From positions 1 to 38,883 of the forward strand of contig CALDYW010000071.1 of the NCBI GenBank assembly GCA_937944395.1: a stretch of 38,883 bases of DNA. The letters are read 5' to 3'. The translations under genes and the position numbers were made by a program. Positions 29,905 to 32,212 of the stretch are shown here, piece after piece. Under the pieces are notes generated by a model. The model did no database searches, was not told the origin of the DNA, and worked only from the letters and a program-made list of their open reading frames with translations. The DNA is from an uncultured Paracoccaceae bacterium. GTDB lineage: Bacteria > Pseudomonadota > Alphaproteobacteria > Rhodobacterales > Rhodobacteraceae. Numbering within the stretch: the stretch's first letter is position 1; the number at the start of each line of letters is the position of its first letter.

Positions 29905-30239
29905 GTCGCCACCTCCTCGCGCGCATGGCAGATCAGATAGTGCCCGCGGCGGTCGAACTCGGTCACCGCCTGGATCGGATAGAGCCTCGCCCCCTCCCGG
30001 AAGCGCTGTCCGGGCCGCGGACGCGCCAGCGATCCCGGCACCCCGGCGCGCACGATGATCCGCATCGGCACCGACGACTTCGGGAACACCTCCTCGGCCG
30101 CCTCGCGGCCGGTGCCGGGCCGGACCTCGGCCCAGTGCACCGCCAGCTCGCTCCAGATCTCGGCCAGCCCGCCCGACCCGTCCGGCACCTGCTGGGCACC
30201 TTCCAGCACCAGGCGCCGCTCCAGCCGGGGAAGTCTCAT
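29901..30239 (-). CDS. GTA head closure / head-tail adaptor protein (g7)
   Basis: 112 residues, beta-rich. MRLPRLERRLVLEGAQQVPDG and the end HYLICHAREEVAT match GTA stopper proteins joining head and tail. ATG 30239 overlaps the g6 stop (ATGA). Confidence 0.88.
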   Translation of the reverse strand: MRLPRLERRLVLEGAQQVPDGSGGLAEIWSELAVHWAEVRPGTGREAAEEVFPKSSVPMRIIVRAGVPGSLARPRPGQRFREGARLYPIQAVTEFDRRGHYLICHAREEVAT

Positions 30240-30835
30240 CGCCGCCCCCCGCCGAAGCCGCGCAGGTTCCGCCAGCGCTCGATCAGGGCCATCACCCCGA
30301 AATCCATCGCTCCGGGCTCGGCACCGGCGCCCTGCCGGTGCTCGTAGTAGTGCGCGGCCAGCATCAGCACGGCCTGCCGCAGGTCCACGGGCACCGCCGC
30401 CCAGTCGGGCCCGAAGCCCGCCGCGAAGCGCACCACGGCCTGACCGCCGGCAGGAACCGCGGGCAGGATCGCGCCGGTCGCCACGATCTTCGGCCGGTGC
30501 GCATCGCTGACCAGCCGAAAGCGCGCCGGATCGACCACCGTCTCGGCGCCGTCACGGTCGCGCAGCCGCACCTGCGTCACCGCCGCCACCGGCGCCACCG
30601 GCAGGGGCTGCGAGTCGGCCCCGCGCCAGTTCTCCAGCGTCAGCAGGAAATCCCGCGTGATCAGCGCCTTGCCGGTCCGCGCCTCGACCGCCGACAGCGC
30701 TGCCCGGAGCAGCTCGCGCAGATAGGCATCCCCGTCCGGCACCTCGGCAAAGCCGGTTCCCAGCCGCAGCTGGTCCTTCAGCGCCTGGACCGGCAGCACG
30801 CTGTCCGGCACCGGCGTCTCCTCGACGAGAAGCAT
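30236..30835 (-). CDS. GTA head-tail connector protein (g6)
   Basis: 199 residues, head completion protein family. Starts MLLVEETPVPDSVLPVQALKDQ-like, then AYLRELLRAALSAVEARTGKAL, and ends AALIERWRN-type MALIERWRNLRGFGGGRR. Strong ribosome binding site AGGAGGAACAGG before ATG 30835. It is preceded by 171 bp holding two competing hairpins; an open frame continues through that gap, but the strong site fixes the start. Confidence 0.9.
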   Translation of the reverse strand: MLLVEETPVPDSVLPVQALKDQLRLGTGFAEVPDGDAYLRELLRAALSAVEARTGKALITRDFLLTLENWRGADSQPLPVAPVAAVTQVRLRDRDGAETVVDPARFRLVSDAHRPKIVATGAILPAVPAGGQAVVRFAAGFGPDWAAVPVDLRQAVLMLAAHYYEHRQGAGAEPGAMDFGVMALIERWRNLRGFGGGRR

Positions 30836-30921
30836 CCTGTTCCTCCTGCCACGCTCCGGCCGAAGAGACGGGCGCGCGCCCCCCCCGGTCGCTCGGACGG
30901 AGGCAGCAGCTAGACGACGCG

Positions 30922-30989
30922 GGGGAAGGCCCCTTGCAGGGCCGGCGCGCGCCCGCCGGGCCTTCCCCGGCCTTTCGGGAGGGGAAGGC
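30922..30989 (-). promoter_or_regulatory. two mutually exclusive hairpins between GTA capsid and connector genes
   Basis: Reading in the direction of GTA transcription, three 9-base segments follow the g5 stop: A GCCTTCCCC (30989-30981), B GGGGAAGGC (30968-30960), C GCCTTCCCC (30930-30922). A pairs with B (9 bp, 12-base loop), or B pairs with C (11 bp with the two flanking pairs, 25-base loop). Neither is followed by a T run. Arms are exact complements. The layout resembles an attenuator, or could protect the 3' end of capsid mRNA. Confidence 0.55.
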
Positions 30990-31006: not shown

Positions 31007-32212
31007 TCAGCTCGTCGCGAACTTCAGCAGCTTGATCGCCGCGAAGTCGCTGACGTCGCCGCCGACCCGCTTCGTGGCATAGAACAGCACATGCGGCTTG
31101 GCCGAGAACGGGTCGCGCAGCACCCGCAGATCGGGCCTCTCCGCAATCGTGTAGCCGGCGCGGAAGTCGCCGAAGGCGATCGCATAGGCGTTGTTCGCGA
31201 TGTCCGGCATGTCCTCGGCGATCAGCACCGCATAGCCCATCAGGCGCGCCGGCTCGCCCGCCGCCAGCCCGTCCGACCACAGGAAACGCCCGTCGGCATC
31301 CTTCATCTTGCGCACCGCGCCCGCGGTCTTCGAGTTCATCACGAAGGTCGCGTTGGTGCGGTAGTCGGCCCCGAGGGAATACACGAGGTCCACGATCGCA
31401 TCGGCCGGATTGGTGGCGTGGAAGTCGCCCGCCGCCCCGGTCGGCACATAGCCGAGGTTGCCCCAGGTCCAGACCGCCTCATCGACCTTCGGGTGGGCGA
31501 GAAAGCCCTTCGGCTTGTCCACGCCGTCGCCGTTGATGAAGGCCGCCGCCTCGGCGCGGGCGAACTTCGACGCGATCCGGTCGGCAAGCCAGCTCTCGAT
31601 GTCGAAGGCGGAATCGTCCAGAAGCCGCTGGCTCGCCTTCGGCATCGCGCTGAGCTCGTGCAGCCGGATCGAGATCCGCTCGATCAGCGGCGTCGCCGTC
31701 TCGGTCACCGGGCCGGCCTCGGTGCCCCAGCCCGAACCGATGTCGGAATGGTCGATCAGCACATCGTAGGACGTCGCCATCACGTTGACGACGCTGGCGA
31801 TCCGGCGCAGCGACGCGGTCGTGCGCAGCACCCCCTGGATGGTCTCGGCGGTCTGCGGATCGACCAGGAAGCCGCCCTCGGCATTGACCGCCGTGGACAG
31901 CGCCTTGCCCTCGAGCGCCAGGCCCCTGAGCGCGTCGTCGTCGCCGCGGCGCAGATAGGCGTCGAAGGCCTTCTGATGAAGGTCCGGCCCCTCTGCCGCG
32001 GCGGAAAGGGCGTGGCGCGCGCTCGGCGCGGTCTTGCGGTCCAGCATGGTCAGTCGCTCGTCCTGTTGTTGCAGCCTGGTCAGAATCTCGGCCCTGAAGC
32101 CCCTGAAGTCCTGAAGGAAACCGGTCACGGCGGATTTCAGTTCCGCAGCCCCCGGCGCGCCCTCGCCGGGCATGTCCTGCCCGGTCCGAACCCTGGTTTC
32201 GGTCGTCGTCAT
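31007..32212 (-). CDS. GTA major capsid protein (g5)
   Basis: 401 residues, HK97-fold shell protein of the GTA head. N-terminal helical delta/scaffold region (about 1-105, with DFRGFRAEILTRLQQQDERL), then the mature capsid starting near AEGGFLVDPQTAETI. Family segments LHELSAMPKASQRLLDDSAFDIESWLADRI, EAAAFINGDG-like EAAAFINGDGVDKPKGF, and MNSKTAGAVRKMKDADGRFLW. Preceded by GGGAAAAGG before ATG 32212. The protease encoded by g4 would remove the N-terminal region. The longest and likely most abundant structural product. Confidence 0.95.
   Translation of the reverse strand: MTTTETRVRTGQDMPGEGAPGAAELKSAVTGFLQDFRGFRAEILTRLQQQDERLTMLDRKTAPSARHALSAAAEGPDLHQKAFDAYLRRGDDDALRGLALEGKALSTAVNAEGGFLVDPQTAETIQGVLRTTASLRRIASVVNVMATSYDVLIDHSDIGSGWGTEAGPVTETATPLIERISIRLHELSAMPKASQRLLDDSAFDIESWLADRIASKFARAEAAAFINGDGVDKPKGFLAHPKVDEAVWTWGNLGYVPTGAAGDFHATNPADAIVDLVYSLGADYRTNATFVMNSKTAGAVRKMKDADGRFLWSDGLAAGEPARLMGYAVLIAEDMPDIANNAYAIAFGDFRAGYTIAERPDLRVLRDPFSAKPHVLFYATKRVGGDVSDFAAIKLLKFATS

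Follow-up and report, generated by a model that had tools for sequence, protein, structure and literature searches.

A structured RNA element with a near-constant loop between the capsid and adaptor genes of Rhodobacteraceae gene transfer agents

The gap between the major capsid gene (g5) and the head-tail adaptor gene (g6) of Rhodobacteraceae gene transfer agents (GTAs) carries a structured RNA element, and its existence and nature as a structured RNA are virtually beyond doubt. It consists of an outer stem (P1) and an inner stem (P2), whose sequences vary freely by compensatory substitution, and of a barely changing loop about 23 nt long. It is apparently undescribed, and we regard it as a new family of RNA that belongs to a known kind, the intercistronic structured element.

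Results

Location and architecture of the element

The window, the whole stretch of 38,883 nt that was analysed, carries its GTA genes on the minus strand, so that the 171-nt gap between g5 and g6 reads from 31006 to 30836 in the sense of the mRNA (Table 1). The capsid protein encoded by g5 was 58-82% identical to the capsids of genomes of the same family, and in RcGTA the product of g6 serves as the adaptor (PMC7296036). Some Rhodobacteraceae GTA clusters (L014, L018, L232, L238, L344, and L349) had an extra gene of about 100 codons (e.g. MSGYLMKAAG...) between g5 and g6; phages MW202777 and OP947159 likewise had a gene at this position, of about 140 codons.

Table 1. Coordinates of genes, segments and RNA features around the g5-g6 gap of the window
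Feature	Position	Strand	Basis or remark
g5, GTA major capsid protein gene	31007..32212	minus	ORF; putative start codon
Segment A = GCCTTCCCC	30981-30989	minus	
Hairpin 1 (segments A + B)	30960..30989	minus	9-bp stem, no U-tract behind; pair probability 0.998
Segment B = GGGGAAGGC	30960-30968	minus	
Whole conserved RNA element (P1, P2, loop)	30867..30957	minus	model R1 match, 57.1 bits; covariation
P1 5' arm	30944..30957	minus	minimum free energy fold, conserved pairing
Mini-hairpin between P1 and P2 5' arms	30928..30943	minus	fold; other rows of alignment A1 are gapped here
Segment C = GCCTTCCCC	30922-30930	minus	
P2 5' arm	30915..30926	minus	fold, P2 covariation; overlaps part of segment C
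Conserved loop TCTAGCTGCTGCCTCCGTCCGAG	30892..30914	minus	one C-to-G change versus consensus TCYAGCTGCTCCCTCCGTCCGAG
P2 3' arm	30881..30891	minus	fold, P2 covariation
P1 3' arm	30867..30880	minus	minimum free energy fold, conserved pairing
g6 ribosome-binding site AGGAGG	30842..30847	minus	sequence reading
g6, head-tail adaptor gene	30236..30835	minus	ORF; g6 homologues after the gap in relatives

Two structures follow each other in the gap. Hairpin 1 is formed by segments A and B, and the P1/P2 element sits directly 3' of it. A counterpart of hairpin 1, a perfect stem of 7 bp or more, was found in 63 of 70 element-bearing gaps; it mostly started 10-20 nt past the capsid stop, its sequence was not conserved, and it had no U-tract. 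Hairpin 1 may be older than the P1/P2 element. In relatives the consensus of P1 was about GGGCGCGYGCC / GGCGCGCGCCC, and the nearly constant loop had the consensus UCYAGCUGCUCCCUCCGUCCGAG, with the form UCYAGCUGCUCCC(C)UCCGUCCGAG among relatives. The mini-hairpin at 30928-30943 is an insertion in the genome of the window and overlaps part of segment C. The junction of P2 and P1 seems to tolerate added helices, of which this mini-hairpin would be one; an apparent extra stem was inserted between the P2 and P1 3' arms in L100 and L395. Two loci from other alphaproteobacterial families (L028 and L030) had a GC hairpin right after the capsid stop, without the P1/P2 element.

The stems covary as a sense-strand RNA

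The pairing of P2 was measured in a gapless alignment anchored on the loop. With the arms of 146 distinct sequences, 1130 of the 1168 cells paired, compared with 960 +/- 9 when the arms were re-dealt among them. A second test used 100 distinct sequences in which the loop was fixed by the search pattern and the stems were free. In this set 94.3% of the P2 cells were paired, versus 79.4% after shuffling and at most 50% when the arms were slid, and cells changed on both sides numbered 150 versus 43 in the shuffled set. None of 500 shuffles reached the covariation score of P2. When P1 and P2 were taken together, 18 of 21 pairs showed changes on both sides; this alignment was fitted to the model, and the 100-sequence P2 test is the cleaner one. 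Moreover, the combinations in P2 included 227 G-U versus 8 A-C, and from this excess we conclude that the active form is the sense (mRNA-strand) RNA. On the same counts, a DNA cruciform and a structure of the antisense strand were rejected. A small ORF or the remnant of a coding gene was rejected as well, since loop lengths spanned all three phases and every frame was broken.

The element is tied to one gene pair in one family

A covariance model (R1) built from 17 sequences was used to scan 296 Rhodobacteraceae genomes, one per genus, 235 of which had a close capsid. Matches were obtained in 149 of the 296, about half of the sampled genera, as a single copy per genome except for one draft genome (83% completeness) with two. 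In all 113 model matches with listed capsid coordinates, the element lay on the strand of the capsid match, 32-93 nt past it. Model R1 found no match among the genomes sampled from the class outside the Rhodobacteraceae. The phages closest by their capsids (46-48% identity; MW202777, MW091529, and OP947159) gave no significant match.

The same linkage emerged from searches of IMG/VR. The exact loop pattern occurred in 62 contigs, directly behind g5 in all 62, and was followed by g6 in every one of them where g6 was on the contig. With a looser core pattern, 95 of 98 further matches adjoined g5/g6 and the other three looked like chance. The matches listed from named genomes were in Rhodobacterales or unclassified proteobacterial bins, and the carriers listed include Rhodobacter capsulatus DSM 1710 and SP108, Ruegeria, Celeribacter, Salipiger, Tateyamaria, and Leisingera. 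The copy of R. capsulatus is flanked by the C-terminus of the capsid (AIKLLKFAAS stop) on one side and by MMLNEV of g6 on the other. Many of the IMG/VR records of about 14 kb (L031-L092 and L243-L340) are Rhodobacteraceae GTA clusters, not viruses.

About a third of the family genomes with a close capsid gave no model match, which indicates that some lineages can do without the element. The no-match clusters inspected were of two kinds, either divergent elements that kept roughly YAGC...CCG..CGAGC, or short gaps with hairpin 1 alone. The copy in the window itself scored low (57 bits versus up to 86) and departed from the others by a single change in the loop, a bulged P2, and the mini-hairpin; judging from these departures, it may be drifting. 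CCTCC was kept in 31 of 40 low-scoring copies. Some of the copies that had lost it retained YAGC and CCGUCCGAGC, and CCUCC is therefore not a strict core.

The three 9-base segments do not form a switch

The first-pass annotation had drawn attention to this gap through three exact 9-base segments behind the g5 stop codon, A and C identical and B their complement, and had proposed that they form two competing hairpins. The segments are real, as such a triple never arose when the gap was shuffled 3000 times with its dinucleotides preserved. The competition was not borne out by folding of the gap, in which the mean pair probability was 0.998 for A:B versus 3.5e-9 for B:C, and forcing B:C carried a penalty of 12.3 kcal/mol (-86.7 versus -99.0). 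Nor was the arrangement kept in relatives. When 70 distinct element-bearing g5-g6 gaps were compared, any 9-mer triple of this kind was present in two, the window and L015, and the latter is an unrelated case with different segments. The compensatory changes found in the gap fell in the P1 and P2 stems. A mutually exclusive A:B/B:C switch was rejected on the energy gap together with the absence of conservation. A classical attenuator, which had been suggested from the geometry of the segments, is not indicated either, because neither hairpin of the window carries a proper U-tract. The interval first singled out, 30922-30989, is in the right place after the g5 stop, but the conserved part, 30867-30957, reaches well outside it. 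The whole gap was only modestly more stable than GC-rich shuffled versions of it (z = -1.8), and a search by folding energy would on its own have revealed nothing special here.

Comparison with described RNA families

In 18 loci, no family of Rfam 15 was found at its gathering score. Permissive Rfam searches returned weak sub-threshold matches alone, among which the single matches to CrfA, HTT-AS1_3, and SNORD71 were taken as chance. The SNORD71 match (L374:188-275) had 29.1 bits against a gathering score of 34 and was read as a chance match in a bacterium. The literature searched held no description of the element, with an earlier account in subscription-only papers being possible. The initial statement that no switch had been described at the g5-g6 site agrees with these searches, as neither Rfam nor the literature searched contained one.

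Discussion

A candidate boundary between capsid and adaptor output

The capsid of RcGTA is a T=3 lattice from which five hexamers are missing, the g6 adaptor is dodecameric, and the g7 stopper is hexameric (PMC7296036). From this architecture we counted about 145 capsid, 12 adaptor, and 6 stopper copies per particle. Stable hairpins are therefore present between genes of unequal product stoichiometry, as in decay terminators of the puf type. We favour, tentatively and at a little short of even chances, the reading that the element is an intercistronic processing or stability boundary which is read through its loop and uncouples capsid from adaptor output. This reading is favoured because of the strong stems behind the capsid gene, the near-constant loop, and the precedent of puf. 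The polycistronic GTA mRNA carries a plain GC hairpin behind the capsid stop and then the long P1/P2 stem, which presents the loop. Hairpin 1 and P1 would block 3'-5' exonucleases, so that a long-lived stretch of capsid mRNA would have its 3' end there, and the long P1/P2 double strand would be a candidate site at which the transcript is cut or ends. The constant loop would be bound by a putative trans-acting factor, either protein or RNA, that sets how often cutting or ending takes place. The outcome would be that a single promoter yields capsid in large excess (about 145 copies versus 12 of the adaptor and 6 of the stopper). A plain stability element needs no constant loop, and the loop factor is to that extent an additional assumption of this proposal. 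Of the original suggestion that a control element in this gap makes capsid more abundant than the downstream proteins, the RNA element, its covarying stems, and a fitting capsid/adaptor boundary have held, and the form of a switch has not.

The closest parallel is the puf mRNA of R. capsulatus, for which segmental stability and processing by RNase E have been described, and whose processing and stabilising structures lead to more light-harvesting than reaction-centre protein (PMC6238624; see also Chen et al. 1988 on puf mRNA, as listed in PMC9690577). Both the pufA-pufL region and the GTA gap have GC-rich hairpins between operon genes that are needed in very different amounts, with the hairpins directly behind the abundant gene, and R. 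capsulatus is also among the hosts of the GTA element. The two differ in that no constant loop is described for puf in the literature consulted, and in that differential stability has been shown for puf and is proposed here for the GTA element. They belong to different operons, and we claim no homology between them.

Alternative explanations

The main rival, which we consider unlikely, is a leaky terminator under antitermination. P1/P2 or hairpin 1 would halt some polymerases behind the capsid gene, and read-through would be set by the loop or by a modified polymerase (GafA). Immediately after capsid gene 10 of T7, an intrinsic terminator with a U-tract lowers the expression of the genes that follow, and in put of HK022 and EAR of Bacillus the RNA of the transcript makes RNA polymerase resist downstream terminators. 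With its GC-rich stems immediately 3' of the capsid gene, the GTA element resembles the T7 terminator as a candidate control point in the same position, but its U-tract is weak or absent and its loop is the conserved part. TTT was found within 9 nt past P1 in 44 of 146 copies versus 9 in a control stretch, and this short T-run fits a leaky terminator equally well. TTTT, however, followed P1 in just 16 of 146 copies. In the window, where no promoter or intrinsic terminator was predicted, there was no terminator-like site and hairpin 1 lacked a U-tract. GTA biology does offer precedents, since GafYZ of Caulobacter lets RNA polymerase bypass a GTA terminator (PMC11150451) and GafA binds the omega subunit of RNA polymerase (PMC9638019). 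That terminator, terGTA of Caulobacter crescentus (PMC11150451), is likewise a structured, GC-rich, RNA-level control point in a GTA structural operon. However, it sits behind the first gene, is built of three 150-bp repeats, has had its termination shown, and belongs to another family, and model R1 matched nothing in the genomes sampled outside the family of the window.

We think it improbable that the element is the source of a 3'-UTR-derived sRNA whose CU-rich loop serves as an anti-Shine-Dalgarno seed on other mRNAs, in the manner of CcsR, RS0680a, and SmelA075. A constant CU-rich loop on freely varying stems is indeed the anatomy of the alphaproteobacterial RNAs SmelA075/SmelA099 and RS0680a/CcsR1-4 (PMC3927594), the CcsR RNAs derive from a 3' UTR, and sRNAs of such origin are common in R. 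sphaeroides (PMC8625941). Those RNAs have two to four loops, whereas the GTA element has one loop motif per locus, and hairpin 1 adds no conserved loop. Its loop is CU-rich and contains CCUCC in most copies. It also keeps a bipartite core (YAGC ... CCGUCCGAGC) beyond CCUCC, and the loss of CCUCC from some elements that retain this core is a point against the sRNA reading. Moreover, the GTA element, known from sequence, lies inside an operon, is tied to one gene pair, has no terminator of its own, and is always coupled to GTA expression.

Control in cis of g6 translation, in which CUCCG of the loop would pair with the g6 Shine-Dalgarno sequence CGGAG and keep adaptor synthesis low, seems to us quite improbable. 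In a survey of the g6 start regions of L031-L210, this sequence was CGGAG in 103 of 131 clusters (TGGAG in 19 and AGGAG in 2), and g3 and g8 use AGGAG. Yet a reading of the gaps indicated that element-free clusters mostly retain CGGAG, g9 favours CGGAG too, although more weakly, and g6 of the window has AGGAGG. The loop is too constant for covariation with a partner to show. A search for another pairing partner of the loop in 41 non-redundant clusters found no conserved one, as the best position, in 14 of 41, barely exceeded the 13 of 41 obtained with a shuffled loop.

A DNA-level site (a protein-binding palindrome or a cruciform) or a small-gene remnant is very remote, even with inverted repeats flanking a constant centre, given the G-U excess in P2 and the loop lengths in all three phases. 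The attenuator with alternative A:B and B:C hairpins has next to no chance, in spite of three segments that exist and are not chance, on the pairing energies and the lack of A-B-C conservation reported above.

Significance

RcGTA serves as the textbook example of a gene transfer agent; its structure is solved and its activators are known, and no control step between its promoter and the particle was described in the papers searched. A more far-reaching reading, which we regard as doubtful, holds that the element is a new RNA class specific to Rhodobacteraceae GTAs, that a dedicated factor reads the loop, and that the element gates all genes downstream of the capsid gene; RNA polymerase modified by GafA could be this factor, or else one of the GTA proteins, for instance the capsid itself. 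If this were true, an RNA-based control would set the number of complete particles built. A loop that hardly changes while its stems vary freely predicts a specific ligand, and the presence of the element in the RcGTA structural operon of R. capsulatus means that it can be precisely targeted by deletions and point mutations. Such work would give access to the way in which a domesticated virus adjusts the proportions of its components. Treated as an RNA family, the element would also be of use in distinguishing GTA clusters from phages, as 157 IMG/VR 'viral' contigs have the core motif beside GTA capsid/adaptor genes.
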